Shown one piece after another: positions 18,416-26,790 of a stretch of 64,000 nt of DNA. Positions within the stretch are counted from its first letter, which is position 1; each line of letters begins with the position of its first letter. The stretch covers positions 62,001 to 126,000 of the forward strand of contig PHEB01000003.1 in assembly GCA_002842735.1 (NCBI GenBank), given 5' to 3'. A program made the translations under genes and the position numbers. The notes beneath the pieces are model-generated. The model worked only from the letters and a program-made list of their open reading frames with translations. It did not search any database and was not told the DNA's origin. The DNA is from Alphaproteobacteria bacterium HGW-Alphaproteobacteria-7. Lineage in GTDB: Bacteria > Pseudomonadota > Alphaproteobacteria > Sphingomonadales > Sphingomonadaceae.

Positions 18416-18473
18416 TGGTGCCCCTGGCCAGACTCGAACTGGCACTTCTTTCGAAACTCGATTTTGAGTGGGG
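18416..18473 (-). pseudogene. 3' half of split tRNA-Leu(CAA), left element junction
   Basis: On the minus strand this reads from the anticodon loop CTCAAAA through TCGAG, the variable arm, the T arm AGTTCGAGTCT and the acceptor strand CAGGGGC plus encoded CCA. CAGGGGC pairs with GCCCCTG of the 5' half at 25797-25838, so both halves came from one tRNA-Leu. The gene is interrupted by the integrative element at the anticodon loop. Confidence 0.85.
18459..18473. repeat. att core, left copy
   Basis: CGATTTTGAGTGGGG is identical to 25797-25811. The match ends at both sides (T and T here, G and C at the other copy), so the core is exactly 15 bp. Confidence 0.85.
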
Positions 18474-18528
18474 TGAGGCTATATTAAGTATATGATTTAG
18501 AAAGATATTTTTTTGAAAATCGAATTTT

Positions 18529-18567
18529 TGTGTAAGGATTTGTGTAAGTGTGTAAGACTTGTGTAAG
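18529..18567 (+). repeat. Four TGTGTAAG arm-type integrase repeats (left arm)
   Basis: TGTGTAAG occurs at 18529-18536, 18541-18548, 18549-18556 and 18560-18567, all in one orientation. Two more lie by the right end at 25704 and 25715. The last pair here has the same TGTGTAAG-ACT-TGTGTAAG spacing as the right-arm pair. Integrase arm sites show this pattern. Confidence 0.65.
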
Positions 18568-18694
18568 GCTTTCCCACAAATAGTAGGGCGCGCCTAAGTC
18601 CATATTTCGCCTTTCGCAGAACTCCTCTCCTCTGTCCAGAAATGATCGCTGATTGATCTGCACCGAAGCCCGGCTGCCGGTTGCTTCGATGCAG

Positions 18695-19759
18695 TCAGAC
18701 ACGGCTATACCATGTCGCCTTGCCGCTACCGTGCCGGACAAGATGGTTGGCCGATACCAGCATCTGCAAATGCTTCTTCACCGTGTTTCGGTTTGCGCCG
18801 GTCACATCGACGACCTGGGCGTTAGTGATCCGCCCATGCGCTTTCGTCAGCTCAAGAATCTGGACTGCGAGTTCGGGCAACCGCTCGACCATCAACCGTT
18901 CGCGGGCGATCTTCGCCTCAAGCCGCGTCTTTTGCTGCCGGAGTGACTGGAGGAAATAGACGATCCACGGCTGCCATGCGGGCGCTTCGCTGCGGATTGT
19001 GCCCTGCGTCCGCCGCAACCCCAGATAATAGCCCTCCTTGCTCGCCTCGATGACGCTTTCGAGCGAGGAGTAAGGCACATAGGCATAACCGCTGCGCAGC
19101 AAGAGCAAGGTGGTCAGCACCCGCGACAAACGGCCATTGCCATCCTGAAACGGATGGATTTCGAGAAAGACGACGGTGAAGATCGCTATAACAAGCAGCG
19201 GATGAAGATGCTTGCTATCCAGTGCCTCATTCAGCCATTCGACCAGTTCGGCCATCAGACGCGGTGTGTCGAACGGCGTCGCTGTCTCGAACACCACGCC
19301 CACCTCCTTGCCGTCAGCATCGAAGGCGACGACGTGGTTGGTATTGGTCTTGTAGTTGCCGCGATGCCGCGCATCCTTGTTGCTGTGCGCGAGCAAGTCA
19401 CGGTGCAACTGCCGGATATGGTTTTCGGTCGGCGTAATCGCGCCGAACGATGCGAAGATCGTTTCCATCACATCGGCATAGCCCGCCACTTCCTGCTCGT
19501 CGCGGGTGGCGAAGTGGCGCACCTCGATGTTGGAAAGCAGCCGCTCGACATCGCTGTCGGACAGCTTGCTCCCCTCGATCCGTGTCGAGGAGCCTATGCT
19601 TTCAATCGTCGCCACGCGCCGCAGCGCTGACAGGCGATCAGGCGCGAGCGTTCCCAGCGCGCGCCAAGCACCTTTGAACTCGTCGATCTCGGCGATCAGC
19701 GAGAGTATTTGCGGCGTGATGGTCAGCGAGTCCGTAACGATGGGCATACCCGCATTCAT
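18695..19759 (-). CDS. Fic-domain protein 1 (class II, with C-terminal winged helix)
   Basis: Fic enzymes transfer AMP or related groups to target proteins. This 354-residue protein has the active motif HPFQDGNGRLSR and an N-terminal inhibitory-type motif, SSTRIEGS, which makes it class II (self-inhibited). The C-terminus ITNAQVVDVTGANRNTVKKHLQMLVSANHLVRHGSGKATWY is a winged-helix DNA-binding region. ATGs at 19759 and 19747 are both possible; the second is favoured if the repeat at 19760-19776 is an operator. It is in the integrative element, and no separate antitoxin gene is adjacent. The target is unknown. Confidence 0.88.
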   Translation of the reverse strand: MNAGMPIVTDSLTITPQILSLIAEIDEFKGAWRALGTLAPDRLSALRRVATIESIGSSTRIEGSKLSDSDVERLLSNIEVRHFATRDEQEVAGYADVMETIFASFGAITPTENHIRQLHRDLLAHSNKDARHRGNYKTNTNHVVAFDADGKEVGVVFETATPFDTPRLMAELVEWLNEALDSKHLHPLLVIAIFTVVFLEIHPFQDGNGRLSRVLTTLLLLRSGYAYVPYSSLESVIEASKEGYYLGLRRTQGTIRSEAPAWQPWIVYFLQSLRQQKTRLEAKIARERLMVERLPELAVQILELTKAHGRITNAQVVDVTGANRNTVKKHLQMLVSANHLVRHGSGKATWYSRV

Positions 19760-19816
19760 ACCCACAAATATCCATAAATGCAACCATGGCCGCAAGCCGA
19801 CCCATAAATACCCATA
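19760..19816. promoter_or_regulatory. Two 17-bp near-identical direct repeats upstream of Fic 1
   Basis: ACCCACAAATATCCATA (19760-19776) and ACCCATAAATACCCATA (19800-19816) differ at two positions and are 40 bp apart start to start. They lie at the Fic 1 promoter/start. They could bind the Fic protein's own winged helix or another regulator. Confidence 0.45.
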
Positions 19817-19840
19817 GGCCTCTGCTCATTGGGGGCCGAA

Positions 19841-20302
19841 CTATAGTTTGGGCAGCCGTCGCACGACTGTAGAAAATTGAACGATGGCCGTGTCGGTCGA
19901 TGCGAACGGCGAAAAGCGATCAACCACGGTTTCAAGTGCTTGCACGTCGCAAGCGACTACTTTTGCCAGAAAGCAATCTTCGCCGGTGACGTGATCGGCT
20001 TCGACAACCTCCGGCGTATCGATAAGCATTTGCGCCAACCGTTTTACTTCGCCGGGTCTGGCGTGCATCCGAACATATGCAGCGATGCCGAGACCAAAGA
20101 CTTTGGGATCGACCAATACTGTATAACCCCGGATTGCACCCGCATCCTCCAGCTTGTGAATCCGCTCGGTCACGCTGGGGCTGGACATTCCGATCTTGTC
20201 GGCAAGGTCGCGGATCGTCATGCGGCCGTCTTCGGTTAGCGCCGCAATTATATCTCGATCTATAGCATCGAGGCGCCGGGTTACATAACGGCTTCGGTTC
20301 AT
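19841..20302 (-). CDS. Lrp/AsnC-family transcriptional regulator
   Basis: This 153-residue protein looks complete. The N-terminal HTH reads LDAIDRDIIAALTEDGRMTIRDLADKIGMSSPSVTERIHKLEDAGAIRGYTVLVDP, and the RAM-type ligand domain runs to about residue 145 (VVEADHVTGEDCFLAKVVACDVQALETVVDRF). Such proteins act as octamers and sense amino acids. It lies inside the integrative element between Fic 1 and the VirB4 fragment and has no obvious partner gene, so its target is unknown. Confidence 0.88.
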   Translation of the reverse strand: MNRSRYVTRRLDAIDRDIIAALTEDGRMTIRDLADKIGMSSPSVTERIHKLEDAGAIRGYTVLVDPKVFGLGIAAYVRMHARPGEVKRLAQMLIDTPEVVEADHVTGEDCFLAKVVACDVQALETVVDRFSPFASTDTAIVQFSTVVRRLPKL

Positions 20303-20515
20303 AATTAGCCCCTAGCTGGATGACACCAGCGGGGCCTTGTGATTGCGAAGGCAAATGTTGGTTTTCGCCTTATTTCCGTGAACTTGCCTCAAGAATCGAC
20401 TGTCAGCGAACCCACCCAGCGACGCGATGAACCCAGTCCGCAGGATCAAGATTAAAGGTCAAAGTTCGGTAGCGGCTTCGATTGGCAAGTCGAAACGGCG
20501 GCAACGCCTTTCTGA
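20303..20515. other. Intergenic stretch in the element, no gene seen
   Basis: I see no open frame with recognisable protein between the Lrp/AsnC start and the VirB4 fragment. It probably holds the promoter of the regulator and deletion-junction sequence. Confidence 0.4.
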
Positions 20516-21018
20516 ATCCATAACCGCGCGGTCAGTCAGGCCGATGCGCTGATTGATGCTTGCGATGACCTGATGTCGAACCGCTTTGTGCTAGGCGATC
20601 ACCACTTCACGCTCGCGGTCTATGCCGACAGCATGAAGGGCTTGCGCGATCATATGTCGGTCGCACGGGCGGCACTTGCCGATACCGGCATGGTGGCAGC
20701 GCGCGAAGGGGCGGCTCTTGAAGCAGCCTATTGGTCGCAGCTCGTCGGCAATTTTGCATGGCGCGCCCGGCCTGCACCCATCACCTCGCTCAACTTTGCC
20801 GCCTTCTCACCTTTCCATACATTCCCGGCAGGAAGTGCCAGCGGTAATCATTGGGGCGATGCCATCGCGTTGCTCAAGACCAACGCCCGAAGCCCCTATT
20901 TCTTCAATTTTCACAAAGGCGATTTGGGCCATACCCTCATCATCGGCCCGTCGGGCGGCGGCAAGACAGTGTTGCTCAACTTCCTGATGGCGCAGACAGA
21001 AAAGACCGGCGCACGGCA
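20516..21018 (+). pseudogene. Internal fragment of a VirB4/TrbE-type conjugation ATPase
   Basis: The frame VSQADALIDACDDLMSNRFVLGDHHFTLAVY through SPYFFNFHKGDLGHTLIIGPSGGGKTVLLNFLMAQTEKTGA is the middle of a type IV secretion ATPase (TrbE/VirB4), including Walker A GPSGGGKT. Both ends are missing: a stop lies upstream at 20513 and the homology stops near 21018, where a helicase fragment begins on the other strand. The open frame continues but encodes antisense of that fragment. This is a relic of a conjugative element. Confidence 0.8.
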
Positions 21019-21019
21019 G

Positions 21020-22160
21020 ATAAGGCAGGCGCAGACCGCGCCCGATGCTCTGCTCGATCAGCGTTCGCGCATTGGCGGCGCGGAGCGGAATGATCGTGTA
21101 AAGGTTGGTGACGTCCCAACCTTCCTTGAGCATGTTGACGTGGATGACGATCTCGACCGGATTGTCATTCTGTTCCACCGTCAACAGCTTTTCGACCGTC
21201 TCCTCTTCCTTCACACTGGAGTCGACCTGGATCACCTTGTCGGCATAGCGGCCTTCAAAGAAGGCGTCGGACTGGATCAACCGGGTCAGCTCCGCCGCGT
21301 GGGTAGTATCGCGCGCGATCACCAGAACGAAAGGCTTGACGATACGCTCGCCATTCTCGCGAGCATAGGTTTCCAGATCGACCTTGACGCTTTCGTGCAG
21401 GCGAACGCCATCTTCCAGCTTCATCGTCTGGATCGCTTCGGGCGATTTGCCTGCCGGATTGAAATCCTTGCGGGTGACGACCGCTGGCTCCTTGACGAAG
21501 CCATCCTCCATCGCACGGGCAAGAGGGTAGTCGAGGATGACATTCTTGAACGCGACCGGACCGCGCGTGCTTTCAACAAATGGAGTCGCGGTCAACTCCA
21601 AGCCAAGCACCGGCTTCAATTCGTTGATCGCGCGCATCCCGGCCGTTGCGCGGTAGCGGTGCGATTCGTCCATCAACAGCACCAGATCTGGCAGGCTCGC
21701 CAGATAGTCGAAATAGCTCTCGCCGATTTCTTCACGGAACGAGCGAATGCGCGGGCTTCGCCCGCCCCGCACTTCCGACGAGATTTTGGCGATATTGAAA
21801 ATGTTGATCGTGGTGGGGAACAGATTGCCGCCCGAGGCAATCTGCCGCTCATAGGTTTCGCCGGTGGTCAGCACCGGCGGCGAGATGGCAAACTCGGCAA
21901 TGCCCTTGAACACGTATTTTCCGGTGTTCGGCGTGAAGTCGGCGATCAGCTTGTTGTAGATCGTCAGGTTCGGCGCGAGGACGAAGAAATTATTGATGCC
22001 GTGGGCAATCTTCAAATAGGCGATGAACGCGCCCATCAGCCGTGTTTTGCCGACGCCGGTGGCCAGGGCGAAGCACAGCGACGGAAAATCACGCTCGAAA
22101 TCGACAACGCCGGGATACTCGCTGGCGATGATGTCCATCGCGGCAGAAAGATCGGTCGAA
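21020..22160 (-). pseudogene. Fragment of a DEAD/DEAH (type III restriction Res-like) helicase
   Basis: About 380 residues are recognisable. They show Walker A CFALATGVGKTRLMGAFIAYL, the DEAH-like box LLMDESHRYRA, motif III LTATPF, and motifs V-VI (VNMLKEGWDVTNLYTIIPLRAANARTLIEQSIGRGLRLPY). The upstream N-terminal region and all sequence after LRLPY, including any nuclease domain, are absent. The left end abuts the VirB4 fragment on the opposite strand and the right end abuts an SNF2 fragment. It is broken at both ends and unlikely to work. Confidence 0.75.
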
Positions 22161-22164
22161 CGGG

Positions 22165-22865
22165 TCGGCGTTGCGCATCTTGAGCTTCTCGCGCACCTCG
22201 TCATCAAAATTTTCGAGCAGTTTGCGCCGCGCGTGGGTCATTGCCTCGTTGATCTCAAGGGTGAGTTCGAGCTGGAGTTCATCGAAAGCGGACTTGATCT
22301 CGGCAGTCTGGCGGCATTGTTGGTAGATACCGGCAATCCGTTTCTCAAAATCGACGCCAGATTCAATGGCTCCAAGCACCTCGTCGCTCGCTCCGAAAAC
22401 GCCCTCGAAAAGCTCGAATTTCTCGGACAGCAACTGATAAACTCGCTGGTCGGCTTCGTTCTTCCGATTGAGGAAATTGACGACGACGACATCATGCTTC
22501 TGGCCGTAGCGATGGCAACGCCCGATGCGCTGCTCGATACGCTGCGGATTCCAGGGCAGGTCATAGTTCACGACCATTGAGCAGAATTGGAGATTGATGC
22601 CCTCGGCTCCGGCCTCAGTGGCGATCATAATCCTGCCCTGCTCGCGAAAATAATCGACCAAGGCAGACCGCATATCTGCGGTTCTCGATCCGGTGACGCG
22701 ATCCGAACCTTCGTGGCGGGACACCCATTCGCGGTAAATCGCCTTCGATTGATCGTCGGTGTTGGTGCCGTTGAACAGGACTACGGCCAACTTGTCACTG
22801 CTGTCTGATGATCGACGCCGCATAAGATCGCTAGCCAAGTATTTTGAGTGATAATCTGTAATCAT
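22165..22865 (-). pseudogene. C-terminal fragment of an SNF2-family helicase
   Basis: The helicase C-terminal lobe is present: VVLFNGTNTDDQSKAIYREWVSRHEGSDRVTGS, MIATEAGAEGINLQFCSMVVNYDLPWNPQRIEQRIGRCHRYGQ, then LLENFDDEVREKLKMR. The N-terminal SNF2 ATPase lobe with Walker A and the DEAH box is missing, and the C-terminus is cut near 22165. An ATG at 22865 follows the Fic 2 stop by 1 nt, so the fragment may be translated. Full homologues often belong to defence-type helicase loci; this copy looks inactive. Confidence 0.75.
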
Positions 22866-22866
22866 T

Positions 22867-24000
22867 TCATTCTTCACTTGCACTGTGATCGGCCGTTATT
22901 CTAGCGGCAAGTCGATACCGCGCGTAGCGACGTTCGCCGGTGCGAATGAGCGCCTCTTTTTCAACAAGATCGGCCAGATCGCGCGTCGTAGTGGCAAGAC
23001 TGGCATCTGTGATCGTCCGATAATTCTCGGCGCTCAACCCGCCCGCAAACCCGTCCGGACCTTCCCGGAACATGCGAAGCAAAGCCTTTTCCTGACGTTC
23101 GTTGATCTCGCCGCGCAAACGATCGAGTAGCCGCGTCTTGTCGATCAGGAAGCGGATGCGGGTGATCGTTCGCGCCTGCGCCTCAATGACAATATCGGCA
23201 AACCATGTCAGCCAGGCATCGATTTCGTTGCTCTGGCTGCCAAGCTGAAGCGCGGCGTAATAGGCTTTGCGATGCCGATGGATCGTTTCCGCGAGTGCTG
23301 TCAGCGTCGGGGCCGCAAGGCTTTGAGCCAATGCCTTTTCAGCAATCGCGCGACCGATCCGACCATTGCCGTCCTCAAAGGGATGGATGCTCTCGAACCA
23401 CAAGTGCGAGATTGCGGCCCGAGTGATTGCGGGCAGCGGGTTCGGCATCGTCGGCGCACTGTCGTTGAACCACTCGATGAAGCGGGACATTTCCATCGGA
23501 ACGGTATCCGACGGCGGTGCCTCGAAATGCACACGTGGCGCATGGAGTGCGCCCGAAACGATCTGCATCGCATCTTCGTGCGTCCGGTAGCGCCCGACAT
23601 CGGCAATGTCGCGACGCCCGTTCATCAGCATTGCGTGCCACGCGAACAGGGTCAAATCGTCGAGCGGCGCGGCATGGTTACGATAGACATCGGCCATGAG
23701 TTCGGCCGCGCCCGCCTCTGCCGCGCTTGCGCGGCGCTGGTCGGCGGCAAAGCCCAGATGCCGTGCGAGCGATGACTGGACGCTGGCACGGTCAAGGATT
23801 TCGCCCTCAATGGCAGAGCTATCGACAACTTCCTGCGAGATCAGTTCGATAGTAAGGCCATCGCGCTCATCGGAGTCGAGGTGGTGGAGCGCGCCAATGA
23901 CGACGCCAGAGCCTTTCAGGAATTGCTCTTCTGACGCGCGGATGCGATCCGCGTCGAAGTGGAAATCAGGCCAGTCGGGAAGTTGCCAATTCCAGCGCAT
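22867..24000 (-). CDS. Fic-domain protein 2 (DUF4172-type, class II)
   Basis: This is a 377-residue Fic protein. The N-terminal DUF4172-like segment opens MRWNWQLPDWPDFHFDADRI. The inhibitory-type helix has SSAIEGE near residue 65, and the active motif is HPFEDGNGRIGR near residue 210. A C-terminal winged-helix-like part follows (GLSAENYRTITDASLATTTRDLADLVEKEALIRTGERRYARYRL). All motif residues (H, F, D/E, GNG, R) are intact, so it should be able to modify a target. A three-site operator-like array lies just upstream. It is in the integrative element beside an SNF2 remnant. Confidence 0.88.
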   Translation of the reverse strand: MRWNWQLPDWPDFHFDADRIRASEEQFLKGSGVVIGALHHLDSDERDGLTIELISQEVVDSSAIEGEILDRASVQSSLARHLGFAADQRRASAAEAGAAELMADVYRNHAAPLDDLTLFAWHAMLMNGRRDIADVGRYRTHEDAMQIVSGALHAPRVHFEAPPSDTVPMEMSRFIEWFNDSAPTMPNPLPAITRAAISHLWFESIHPFEDGNGRIGRAIAEKALAQSLAAPTLTALAETIHRHRKAYYAALQLGSQSNEIDAWLTWFADIVIEAQARTITRIRFLIDKTRLLDRLRGEINERQEKALLRMFREGPDGFAGGLSAENYRTITDASLATTTRDLADLVEKEALIRTGERRYARYRLAARITADHSASEE

Positions 24001-24019
24001 GATCGATAAGACACCTTTC

Positions 24020-24073
24020 TATCAATCACGATGTAGCCCAATTATGATTGATAAAGCGATAGCCAATCAATCA
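24020..24073. promoter_or_regulatory. Three ATCAATCA/TGATTGAT sites upstream of Fic 2
   Basis: ATCAATCA at 24021-24028, TGATTGAT at 24045-24052 and ATCAATCA at 24066-24073. The first two form a perfect 9-bp inverted repeat (TATCAATCA ... TGATTGATA). Centre spacings are 24 and 21 bp, about two helical turns. The array starts 20 nt upstream of the Fic 2 ATG and is a likely operator. Confidence 0.55.
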
Positions 24074-24270
24074 CCAAAGGCACATTGTCGCTTCGCGTGG
24101 TCAATTTGTGGCGATGGCCGCACCCCGGATGGGCTGCCAAGTGCCAGCATGACAATGCCGTTCGATTGTCATTTCGCGCAGCGGAGCGCGGGACGTGCGA
24201 CCCCAGGCGATCCGCTGATGCAGGCTCCTGTCCCCCGTGCGGTGGACTTTACAGAGCCTGCTATCTTAGA

Positions 24271-24355
24271 TGGTGCGGGCGGTGGGAATCGAACCCACAC
24301 TCCTTGCGGAACGGGATTTTGAATCCCGCGCGTCTACCAATTCCACCACGCCCGC
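24271..24355 (-). tRNA. tRNA-Leu(CAA), intact, inside the integrative element
   Basis: A complete 85-nt class II tRNA: acceptor strands GCGGGCG/CGCCCGC, D arm GTGGTGGAATTGGTAGAC, anticodon stem CGGGA/TCCCG with loop TTCAAAA (anticodon CAA), long variable arm, T loop GTTCGATTC and encoded CCA. It has the same anticodon as the split host tRNA. It lies 12 nt past the integrase stop on the same strand. Confidence 0.93.
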
Positions 24356-24366
24356 GTTGCGACATG

Positions 24367-24394
24367 CCTATAGCGTCGCCACCAAAACACGCAA
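24367..24394 (-). promoter_or_regulatory. Candidate promoter for the intact tRNA-Leu(CAA)
   Basis: On the minus strand TTGCGT (24389-24394), a 16-nt spacer and TATAGG (24367-24372) form a sigma-70-like promoter. The -10 ends 11 nt before the mature tRNA. It overlaps the 3' end of the integrase gene. This is visual matching only. Confidence 0.35.
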
Positions 24395-25687
24395 CGGCAA
24401 ACATAAACAAGGCAGCCTATGTTGTTGCCTTCGCGGCCTTCTTTCGGGCCGCGCCTTACGAACATTGACGGCGGATGCGTCGATGTTGTTCTTCAAATGC
24501 CGCCCGTAAAACTTCTCGATCATCTCGACACTGGTGCGGCAGTTCTTGGCGACCTGATAAATGTCCGCGCCTTCGAGCAATCGCAGGCAGATATAGGTAT
24601 GGCGCAGGCTGTAGCAGGTGCGGATGTGGCCATCGCGGTCGAACTTCAGATTCAGCTCGTCGAGGACCGTATTCATCAACTCGCGCGGCGACTTCCCGAA
24701 TATCCGGTCGGTCGGTTTGAGCTGCTTGCGCTTGCGGACTCGCTCGAAGGGCAGGATCGCACCGGGCATCGACTTGCAGAAACCGACCCCGCGCTTGCCG
24801 CGCACCTCGATCTCCAGGATGCGCTCGCCGGTCGATTCGTCATTCACGATCTTGACGTCCCGGAGCTCAAGCCGTGCGGACTCGTCGGGACGAAGCCCCG
24901 TGTTGCCCATGAACAAAACATAATCGTGGAAGGTCTCGCAAACTTCACGCCAGCGCGGCTTTGGCGGGTTCTTCGCCCGCTCGCGCGTAGCCTCATAAAG
25001 CATCTTGTATTCCTCGGGCGAGAACCACGCGCGATGCTCGACCTTGCCGGAAGTCTTATACGGCGCGGACATATCGGGCAGCGCCGCGATCCAGCCCTTG
25101 CGGTTGGCGGTTTTCAACACCTGACGGAGCGTGACGATTTCGTGATGCAGGGTGGCACGGGCAGGCTTCTTCGGCTTGCCGGTCTTTGGATCGAGCCGCG
25201 ATGTTTGACGGTGCGCCCGATACTCCTGCACTTTGCCAGCGGTAATGTCCTCAAGGGCCGTGTTACCAAAGAACGGCAACAGATGGACGCGGATTATGTC
25301 GGACTTCGACGCCACATACCCCGCATTGCGCTCGCCCAACGTGATAACCTCGAACTCGCTGGTGAACGCTTTAGCGGCATCCTCGAAGCTGGGGCCGGTT
25401 GGCGTTCGCCTTCGCCGCCCATCGGTCGGCGCGCCGGGTCCGGCGATAAGAGGCTGGACGGGGACGTCCAGCAAGGGAAGGCCGCCGCGTCGGCGTTGGC
25501 GATCTTCGACGCATCGCTCCATATACCAATCGCGGGCAAAATCCTTGGCCGCGGCAAGGCTCGTCTCCTTGGTCGTCTGCCGGTGGTTGCGACTTCCCAG
25601 GTAGGTTGCGCATTGCCAGTAGCGGCTGCCCTCACGCCGGTAAACGTGGAGCGCACCATCCATTAGCTCATGGGTTTCAAATGGCAT
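24368..25687 (-). CDS. int: Tyrosine recombinase/integrase of the element
   Basis: This site-specific integrase of about 439 residues should catalyse integration at the tRNA-Leu core. The N-terminal part is an AP2-like/SAM-like DNA-binding region (YWQCATYLGSRNHRQTTKETSLAAAKDFARDWYMERC). The catalytic domain shows GNTGLRPDESARLELRDV (first Arg), YSLRHTYICLRLLEG (box II) and the Tyr in VEMIEKFYGRHL. I chose the ATG at 25687 (MPFETHEL). The longer TTG start at 25750 would translate the arm repeats. The gene begins 109 bp inside the right core, the usual place for int. Confidence 0.9.
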   Translation of the reverse strand: MPFETHELMDGALHVYRREGSRYWQCATYLGSRNHRQTTKETSLAAAKDFARDWYMERCVEDRQRRRGGLPLLDVPVQPLIAGPGAPTDGRRRRTPTGPSFEDAAKAFTSEFEVITLGERNAGYVASKSDIIRVHLLPFFGNTALEDITAGKVQEYRAHRQTSRLDPKTGKPKKPARATLHHEIVTLRQVLKTANRKGWIAALPDMSAPYKTSGKVEHRAWFSPEEYKMLYEATRERAKNPPKPRWREVCETFHDYVLFMGNTGLRPDESARLELRDVKIVNDESTGERILEIEVRGKRGVGFCKSMPGAILPFERVRKRKQLKPTDRIFGKSPRELMNTVLDELNLKFDRDGHIRTCYSLRHTYICLRLLEGADIYQVAKNCRTSVEMIEKFYGRHLKNNIDASAVNVRKARPERRPRRQQHRLPCLCLPLRVLVATL

Positions 25688-25703
25688 TCCGAAGTCCCCA
25701 AAA

Positions 25704-25722
25704 TGTGTAAGACTTGTGTAAG
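25704..25722 (+). repeat. Two TGTGTAAG arm-type integrase repeats (right arm)
   Basis: TGTGTAAG at 25704-25711 and 25715-25722, same orientation and sequence as the four left-arm copies. They lie between the integrase start and the right core, where binding could also repress int. Confidence 0.65.
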
Positions 25723-25796
25723 TCTTTTTGGAAACCTCGTCCTTGCTCAAATTGTTGGTTTTACAGGGTTTTTGGCTTAGATTTTTAGGCTAACCG

Positions 25797-25811
25797 CGAT
25801 TTTGAGTGGGG
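25797..25811. repeat. att core, right copy
   Basis: CGATTTTGAGTGGGG, identical to 18459-18473, in the same orientation. Confidence 0.85.
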
Positions 25812-25838
25812 CGCGTCTACCAATTCCACCACAGGGGC
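25797..25838 (-). pseudogene. 5' half of split tRNA-Leu(CAA), right element junction
   Basis: The minus strand reads GCCCCTG, then the D arm TGGTGGAATTGGTAGACGCG, then CCCCA and the anticodon loop CTCAAAA, and then enters the element. GCCCCTG complements the acceptor strand of the 3' half at 18416. The 5' anticodon-stem strand CCCCA does not pair with TCGAG of the 3' half. Confidence 0.85.
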
Positions 25839-25856
25839 GCCTGCGCGGGAGCGGGC

Positions 25857-25885
25857 CTGTTAGCGAGGTGTGCGATCCCTATCAA
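25857..25885 (-). promoter_or_regulatory. Promoter of the interrupted tRNA-Leu
   Basis: On the minus strand TTGATA (25880-25885), 17 nt, TAACAG (25857-25862), then 18 nt to the 5' end of the tRNA half. It resembles a sigma-70 promoter, so the truncated 5' half is probably still transcribed into the element end. Confidence 0.4.
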
Positions 25886-25899
25886 GCGCCAAGCGGCAT

Positions 25900-25915
25900 T
25901 GTTTCACGTGAAACA
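25900..25915. promoter_or_regulatory. parS: parS centromere site (ParB binding)
   Basis: TGTTTCACGTGAAACA is a perfect 16-bp palindrome identical to the conserved bacterial parS consensus. ParB loads here for chromosome segregation. It is intergenic, between the tRNA-Leu promoter and the end of suhB. parS sites usually cluster near the replication origin; parAB are not in the window. Confidence 0.9.
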
Positions 25916-25971
25916 TTGGCCTGGATGGGGTCTAGCAGGGGTCTAGGCAGGGTCTGGAGCGTTCTGCGACC

Positions 25972-26790
25972 TTACCGCAAAGCCCCTGCCAACAACTTAT
26001 GCAGCCGTGAATGCAGCACGTCATTGGCCGCCAACACCTGATCAGCATGGATCGGTGCCGAGCGCCCGCGGAAATCGGATACGAACCCGCCCGCCTCGCG
26101 CACCAACAGGCATCCGGCTGCGGTGTCCCATTCCGACAGGCCGCTTTCCCAGAACCCGTCAAACCGGCCCTGCGCGACGTAAGCCAGATCAAGCGAGGCG
26201 GCGCCGAACCGGCGGATACCCGCAACCTCCGGGCCAATCGCGCCGAAAATCCGGCTCCATTCGGCAAAATCACCATGCCCGAAGAACGGCACCCCGGTGG
26301 CCACCAGCGAATCGGCCAGCCGGGAACGGGCCGAGACCCGCAGCCGCGCGTCCTGCAACCACGCACCGCGCGATTTTTCGGCCCAGAAGGTCTGATCGGT
26401 GATCGGCTGATAGACCACGCCCGCCACCACATCGCCCCAGCCGCTGCCATCGGGCTTGGGTTCCTGCGCGGCGATGGAAATGGCGAAATGCGGGATGCCG
26501 TGGAGGAAATTGGTGGTGCCATCAAGCGGATCGACGATCCAGCGCGGCATTCCGGGATCGCCTTCGATCACGCCTGCTTCCTCCATCACGAAGCCCCAGC
26601 CGGGCCGCGCGGTGAGCAGTTCGTCATACAGCGTGCGTTCGGCGCGGATATCCGCCTTGCTGACGAAATCAGCCGGGCCTTTGCGGCTCGCCTGCAAATG
26701 TTCGACTTCGCCGAAATCGCGCCGCAAACGCCCGCCCGCCTTGCGCGCGGCGCGTTCCATTACGCGGATCAGGCCGGAAATAGCTGCCAT
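25972..26790 (-). CDS. suhB: Inositol monophosphatase family protein (SuhB-like)
   Basis: A 272-residue Mg-dependent phosphatase of the IMPase superfamily. Metal-site motifs are E70/E71 in VMEEAG, DPLDGTTNF (D87, D90) and the C-terminal WDTAAGCLLVREAGG. It may hydrolyse inositol-1-phosphate or a related sugar phosphate, or play the SuhB role in rRNA antitermination; the sequence cannot decide. The start is 9 nt after the efp stop, so efp-suhB is probably one operon. Confidence 0.88.
   Translation of the reverse strand: MAAISGLIRVMERAARKAGGRLRRDFGEVEHLQASRKGPADFVSKADIRAERTLYDELLTARPGWGFVMEEAGVIEGDPGMPRWIVDPLDGTTNFLHGIPHFAISIAAQEPKPDGSGWGDVVAGVVYQPITDQTFWAEKSRGAWLQDARLRVSARSRLADSLVATGVPFFGHGDFAEWSRIFGAIGPEVAGIRRFGAASLDLAYVAQGRFDGFWESGLSEWDTAAGCLLVREAGGFVSDFRGRSAPIHADQVLAANDVLHSRLHKLLAGALR

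Follow-up and report, generated by a model that had tools for sequence, protein, structure and literature searches.

What stands in for a tRNA gene that an integrative element has cut in two without rebuilding it? The question is raised by a 64,000-nucleotide stretch of contig PHEB01000003.1 from Alphaproteobacteria bacterium HGW-Alphaproteobacteria-7 (hereafter the window), in which a 7.4 kb element, inserted beside a tyrosine integrase gene (int), splits the anticodon loop of a native tRNA-Leu(CAA) gene and leaves its halves 7.3 kb apart. We put at about 0.87 the probability that the window holds a decayed representative of a family of integrative elements whose members supply a substitute for the tRNA gene that they invade and do not restore it.

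The two halves share an exact 15-bp repeat, one copy at each end of the element (Table 1), and when joined they are called as tRNA-Leu(CAA) by ARAGORN, with an acceptor stem paired at 7/7 positions. The anticodon stem of the joined gene is paired at only 3/5 positions (CCCCA/UCGAG); close relatives have CTCGA/TCGAG. No rebuilding tRNA half was found at either end of the element, and an intact tRNA-Leu(CAA) starts 12 nt past the stop codon of the int open reading frame (ORF). A first-pass annotation of this DNA had described the split tRNA-Leu, element ends that do not restore the missing half and a complete tRNA-Leu(CAA) 12 nt behind int, all of which are borne out by the repeat, the ARAGORN calls and the Rfam match to the carried gene. 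It had read the carried tRNA as a replacement for the broken one, and had suggested counting tRNA-Leu(CAA) genes in the genome and inspecting the empty site in relatives.

The count leaves the element with the sole intact tRNA-Leu(CAA) gene found in the genome. Among 40 Rfam tRNA matches, the nine of class-II length were identified as tRNA-Leu with anticodons CAA (on the element), UAA, UAG, CAG and GAG, three tRNA-Ser and one tRNA-Tyr. No further intact tRNA-Leu(CAA) was detected in the genome, where patterns for the 5' and 3' sides match nothing beyond the two broken halves and the tRNA on the element. The assembly, in 39 contigs, is listed as 100% complete, and a missed second copy is unlikely. 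For the empty site, the joined native tRNA was compared with 60 relatives, of which 36 are genomes of the same genus. A full-length match (84-98% identity) is present in 35/36 same-genus genomes, the remaining one being 72% complete, and ARAGORN called an intact tRNA-Leu(CAA) in 6/6 of those to which it was applied. Seven matches (L024-L029 and L031) differ from the joined window tRNA by two bases only, in the 5' strand of the anticodon stem (CTCGA versus CCCCA). The genome G007 displays the empty site itself, as both window flanks (91% identity) abut exactly one intact native tRNA. Element-free relatives hold the native tRNA, not that of the element: among the matches listed, no element-like tRNA was found in same-genus genomes, the best match in each being 76-82% identical.

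The integrase encoded by the window matches the PHROG integrase family (E 6.6e-23) and Pfam Phage_int_SAM_3 above cut-off; it matched no NCBIfam model, and no PDB sequence at 0.001. An AlphaFold2 model (mean predicted local distance difference test score, pLDDT, 77.9; predicted template modelling score, pTM, 0.46) yielded, among the 50 fold matches listed, XerA, XerH, Tn1549 Int, Cre, lambda Int, and integron and other integrases, at E values of 1e-8 to 1e-4, template modelling (TM) scores of 0.2-0.6 and large root mean square deviations. R264, K296, R360, H361 and Y392, which we take to be the catalytic positions of tyrosine recombinases, are invariant across 32 aligned sequences, an alignment from which L099 was excluded. 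Judged by sequence relatedness, catalytic fold and the Arg/Lys/Arg/Tyr set, the window integrase is a tyrosine recombinase.

To what extent the arrangement is shared was assessed with an alignment of six integrases as the query against genome contigs, a scan that reported 534 relatives, of which 80 were kept and examined. In 69/80 loci int is preceded, mostly at 100-155 nt before its match, by the 5' half of a class-II tRNA that is cut within its anticodon loop. The 69 broken targets comprise 43 tRNA-Leu(CAA), 20 tRNA-Leu(UAA), five tRNA-Ser(UGA) and one tRNA-Ser(CGA). An intact tRNA no more than 400 nt downstream of int and on the same strand, termed here a near replacement, is present in 47 of these 69 loci, and in every one of the 47 it belongs to the same isoacceptor as the broken gene; the tRNA of L151, misnamed by ARAGORN owing to its intron, reads Leu(UAA) after intron removal. 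These locus counts do not equal independent events, as they contain near-duplicates (L131-L133; L140 and L143; L160, L162 and L163). The replacement tRNA of the window recurs, identical over 85 bases, in 13/80 loci, whose integrases are 86-97% identical.

Loss of the native gene is equally evident in other genomes. A search of 31 genomes with a 3'-half pattern found a 3' half fitting the 5' half in 30, and none in G063; apart from the replacement it is the sole match with the host loop, the exception being G081, where the same sequence stands at two contig ends. A stricter version requiring GGTTCGA had found 3' halves in 4/14 genomes (UAA version, 0/12) and missed that of the window itself. 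The paired halves form complete acceptor stems (7/7) in 30/30 cases and complete anticodon stems (5/5, G-U allowed) in 29/30, the window being the single case with a damaged stem, and ARAGORN recognized no intact tRNA at any of the 30 half-pair places. Nineteen pairs of halves share a contig and a strand, at a spacing of 7.4 to 90 kb; in ten pairs the halves are on different contigs, and in G062 they are separated by 697 kb of a single contig. The 5'-side pattern returns exactly one half and one replacement in 17/19 Leu(CAA) and 10/12 Leu(UAA) genomes, with the reservation that exact tRNA-side patterns may miss divergent copies. Among the four genomes that deviate, G062 contains an additional intact copy and G069 a degenerate one; G081 and G088 give one match each, the replacement or the half deviating from the pattern. 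By this measure most of the genomes tested had no native copy other than the broken gene.

The carried tRNA follows the target of the integrase. On the integrase tree the target isoacceptor changes at least nine times, and the replacement isoacceptor, scored at loci with both, at least six times, in agreement throughout; the trees are quick ones without bootstrap, L138 being left out of both because its int has an early stop and L226 out of the second because it repeats L084. Because carried isoacceptor and integrase target change together in relatives, the replacement role proposed by the first-pass annotation is strengthened.

The replacing arrangement is not a general property of these integrases. 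When 296 genomes of the order were scanned, integrase homologues turned up in 17, including that of the window, and 20 loci were returned: eight of the replacing type, two (L230 and L236) without a tRNA, and ten distant ones adjoining an intact tRNA. The latter integrases (L224, L225, L227-L229 and L231-L235), with 57-62% identity in the matched part, are homologous to those of the replacing elements and differ from them in lying directly downstream of an intact tRNA, tRNA-Met(CAT) in nine cases and tRNA-Arg(ACG) in one, and in having no tRNA downstream of int within the fetched stretch. This position is the one that the usual restoring arrangement would be expected to give. A single change on the tree separates the replacing and the Met/Arg-adjacent types, the deepest split being weakly supported (28). 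The 83-row clade that contains the window has 100% support in the Shimodaira-Hasegawa-like approximate likelihood ratio test, and none of its classified members adjoins tRNA-Met or tRNA-Arg. One contig, G059:C1, has three integrase homologues (at 2798597, 3451228 and 4042477), of which one is of the replacing type, one lies beside tRNA-Met(CAT) and one beside no recognized tRNA.

The target loops were compared with those of the replacements. Under a pattern accepting either C or T at position 32, the host-half loop is CTCAAAA in 43/43 Leu(CAA) and CTTAAAA in 20/20 Leu(UAA) targets. Of the 30 near Leu(CAA) replacements, 26 have TTCAAAA and four CTCAAAA. Leu(UAA) replacements bear an intron of 205-224 nt, in all 14 located within 400 nt of int (L123-L125, L127, L129, L130, L134, L139, L144, L148, L149, L151, L152 and L175) and in six farther off; the sole intronless one, L174, has the loop TTTAAAA. 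The intron-bearing tRNA-Leu(UAA) records are from Caulobacterales, Hyphomonas, gammaproteobacteria and others. Removal of the intron, between U34 and A35, recreates CTTAAAA and an ARAGORN call of Leu(UAA) in 14/14 near loci; in the carried gene the intron masks a stretch that, uninterrupted, would fit the core recognized by the integrase. The Rfam group I intron model RF00028 (cut-off 50 bits) was scanned against nine loci and was reached by L175 (56.0 bits) and L151 (52.1 bits), with L125 (39.4 bits) and L134 (38.4 bits) below the cut-off at E values of about 1e-8; L123, L127, L129, L139 and L144 lay outside the scan, and assignment of the remaining intron loci to group I is an extrapolation.

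The sequences themselves show the split, the sole intact copy, the isoacceptor match and the intron. In the most probable reading, the tyrosine integrase recombines two sites, the attachment site of the element (attP) and the anticodon loop of a class-II tRNA gene, at a core CT-Y-R-AAA (CTCAAAA in the window). Each end of the integrated element is then bordered by one dead half of the invaded gene, 5' or 3', and the complete tRNA of the same isoacceptor behind int, which we infer to be transcribed, matured, charged and functional, would take over decoding. The replacement usually lacks the customary integrase target, through U32 in place of C32 in most Leu(CAA) members and through the U34/A35 intron in nearly all Leu(UAA) replacements seen, and would in this way be protected from the integrase. 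The hypothesis of such target-proofing is strongest for the intron group. We suggest only tentatively that the elements spread an integrase-resistant tRNA allele, marked by U32 or a group I intron, with element, tRNA and intron moving as one unit.

The host probably depends on keeping the element, to an extent that may vary with the isoacceptor. UUG is probably also read by tRNA-Leu(UAA) through wobble, and tRNA-Leu(UAA) is the sole reader of UUA. Since the genome of the window has a tRNA-Leu(UAA) that could wobble on UUG, the broken Leu(CAA) gene may not be strictly essential, and since tRNA-Leu(UAA) alone reads UUA, breaking its gene in Leu(UAA) members should be lethal without a replacement. 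Leu(CAA) members may thus depend less on the carried copy than Leu(UAA) members. The 5' anticodon stem of the window, CCCCA, matches the arm beside the 3' half (CACCCCA), unlike the CTCGA of relatives; one guess is that the left attachment site (attL) was converted by sequence from the right one (attR) or from attP. Because of the altered stem, an element that excised precisely would leave behind a tRNA in which two of the five anticodon-stem pairs are mismatched.

Several observations weigh against replacement of the invaded gene, or against protection of the carried copy. A near replacement is missing from 22 of the 69 loci where a 5' half was found. Of these, three reach a contig end, and in 15 a tRNA of the matching isoacceptor lies farther away on the int strand, at 0.6 to ~13 kb from int (~1.2 kb in L172); L122 and L158 have no replacement tRNA within 10 kb, the copy in L171 is degenerate, and in L173 an intact tRNA-Leu(CAA) lies behind int on the opposite strand (L173:11347-11431). 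By the pattern used, 11/80 loci have no 5' half, six of these carrying a tRNA behind int and two of the six (L130 and L152) showing a half by eye. With respect to the loops, six Leu(CAA) replacements keep C32 (L120, L135, L141, L142, L156 and L222), host and replacement of G059 both read TTCAAAA, and seven near Ser replacements keep the target loop CTTGAAA or CTCGAAA; in 6/7 of the latter the anticodon stem starts with A, at a position where the six host halves have C. The replacement-type tRNA of L101 is itself cut in the loop, and U32 is common in the native tRNAs of other families (7/8 legible sequences from 11 loci). Seven of the nine scanned intron loci, L124, L130, L148, L149 and L152 among them, fall under the Rfam gathering score. 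Finally, no sigma-70-like promoter was recognized in a scan of 24200-26000, leaving unsupported the candidate promoter that the first-pass annotation had assigned to the element tRNA; because of this result, the replacement is perhaps co-transcribed with int. In L101:5107-6180 the cut falls after GATTCAAAATC, as if another element had inserted.

Other explanations have to accommodate the same observations. An intact native gene split only by misassembly might be entertained for a genome in 39 contigs, and is practically discounted because further assemblies show the split too, among them contigs as long as 4.19 Mb (G059) and 4.81 Mb (G074), and because complementary halves occur in almost every genome searched. 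tRNA genes are common on mobile elements, and the carried copy could be ordinary codon-supply cargo, as in many phages, that matches the broken gene by coincidence. This is very improbable given the uniform agreement of isoacceptors, its persistence through the changes of carried tRNA and target counted on the tree, the position of the tRNA right behind int, and the large majority of genomes in which only a half and a replacement are found. Classical restoration, in which the tRNA was rebuilt by attP at an element end and was shifted to its internal position by a subsequent rearrangement, would be in keeping with the intact tRNA-Met or tRNA-Arg at the int-proximal end of distant homologues and with the intact tRNA several kb from int in some Phenylobacterium loci. 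It is hardly credible, as a separate complementary 3' half implies that the intact tRNA used neither native half, and as the replacement and the native tRNA of the window share only 80% identity over 64 bases. In four doubtful-looking Phenylobacterium and Brevundimonas genomes a 3' half is likewise present, at a greater distance or on a separate contig; the idea that Phenylobacterium loci lack one was dropped when a relaxed pattern found fitting 3' halves. Misassembly, restoration followed by rearrangement, and coincidental cargo were rejected on the halves in 30/31 genomes and the 47/47 isoacceptor match.

The remaining alternative concerns what the carried tRNA is kept for. Compensation could be a side effect, the gene being retained mainly to addict the host to the element, as might be suspected from the sole-copy status of the replacement, from its integrity beside the early-stop int of L138 and in the decayed window element, and from the mispaired anticodon stem that precise excision would leave in the window. 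We consider this unlikely. For the 29/30 pairs with matched halves, an element leaving precisely would give back a native tRNA with sound pairing, such that only imprecise loss would be penalized, and addiction is in any case inseparable from compensation by sequence. Replacement of the broken gene by the carried copy is the explanation carried forward here.

How does such an element compare with known systems? Group I introns in tRNA-Leu(UAA) are known from cyanobacteria. The introns reported here share the U34/A35 position and, in the loci that match Rfam, the group I class; unlike the cyanobacterial case, the intron-bearing tRNA belongs to an integrative element, and the native tRNA that this element splits has no intron. 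In tRNA-targeting islands, as described in the part of PMC4383910 available to us, a fragment in attP restores the tRNA gene and one displaced fragment marks the far end. The Islander-type islands of that account resemble the elements studied here in their tyrosine integrase, anticodon-loop site, direct repeats at both ends and int beside one end; they differ in having a restored tRNA and one fragment, where here there are two dead fragments and a separate complete tRNA. The window element accordingly shows insertion in a tRNA gene with direct repeats, and no restoration by an attP fragment. Archaeal pTN3-like integrases also use tRNA genes as targets, and the available part of PMC8371274 has an intact tRNA restored or reconstituted after integration, describes no separate replacement tRNA, and reports a proposal that tRNA introns are spread by elements whose attP bears an intron. 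Among the papers listed by searches of an open-licence library, no title or abstract opening described a split tRNA replaced by a whole carried copy, or its link to an intron; a prior description may exist elsewhere.

Against the restoration rule, as set out in the available parts of PMC8371274 and PMC4383910, stands a widespread lineage whose members break a tRNA gene and put an allele of their own in its place. This makes testable the tying of element to host, the change of integrase target together with the antidote tRNA, and the possible travel of tRNA group I introns among bacteria. If the idea of a spreading resistant allele is true, the scattered intron-bearing tRNA-Leu(UAA) genes of proteobacteria would be explained, the intron being the shield of the element and its splicing a host requirement for reading UUA. 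There is also a possible annotation trap, in that methods expecting one tRNA gene plus one fragment could pair the wrong pieces.

Table 1. Coordinates of the split tRNA gene, the replacement tRNA and the coding regions of the window element.
Feature	Position in window	Strand	Remarks
Native tRNA-Leu(CAA), 3' half	18416..18473	-	Intact tRNA at this place in G007, flanks 91% identical
attR copy of the exact 15-bp repeat CCCCACTCAAAATCG	18459..18473	-	
Second Fic-domain protein, C-terminal winged helix (cargo)	18695..19795	-	
Lrp/AsnC-type regulator (cargo)	19841..20302	-	
Conjugation-gene remnant ORF	20573..22183	+	First ~66 aa match the end of CagE/TrbE/VirB4
ResIII helicase domain ORF (cargo)	20807..22207	-	Apparently a fragment
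Helicase C-terminal domain ORF (cargo)	22089..22883	-	Apparently a fragment
Fic-domain protein with DUF4172 (cargo)	22867..24000	-	
Intact replacement tRNA-Leu(CAA), loop TTCAAAA	24271..24355	-	ARAGORN; Rfam tRNA, 57.8 bits
Tyrosine integrase ORF	24368..25750	-	ORF from TTG at 25750; alignment with relatives fits an ATG start at ~25687
attL copy of the exact 15-bp repeat CCCCACTCAAAATCG	25797..25811	-	
Native tRNA-Leu(CAA), 5' half, cut in the anticodon arm (attL)	25797..25838	-	Pairs with the 3' half

The minus strand between the halves reads int, tRNA-Leu(CAA), Fic, the helicase fragments, the VirB4/TrbE remnant (on the other strand), the Lrp/AsnC-type regulator and the second Fic gene. The cargo is partly decayed, while the int frame is open and the tRNA whole, and the G+C content of the element is 57% versus 62% in the flanks. 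Among its scanned ORFs the only conjugation gene is the TrbE/VirB4 fragment, and with no working set found there the element does not class as an integrative and conjugative element. Small as it is, the element encodes two different Fic-domain proteins.

A few relatives depart from the common arrangement. Two loci, L153 (Planctomycetaceae) and L157 (a metagenome-assembled genome of Verrucomicrobia), carry tRNA-Leu(UAG) with no split half recognized upstream. In L107, L121 and L155 an att-like core stands upstream of int without a tRNA half, perhaps reflecting tandem elements or non-tRNA sites. The four plasmid-borne integrases have no tRNA nearby. Viral contigs yielded four relatives of the integrase, one of which has a tRNA-Leu(CAA) behind int.

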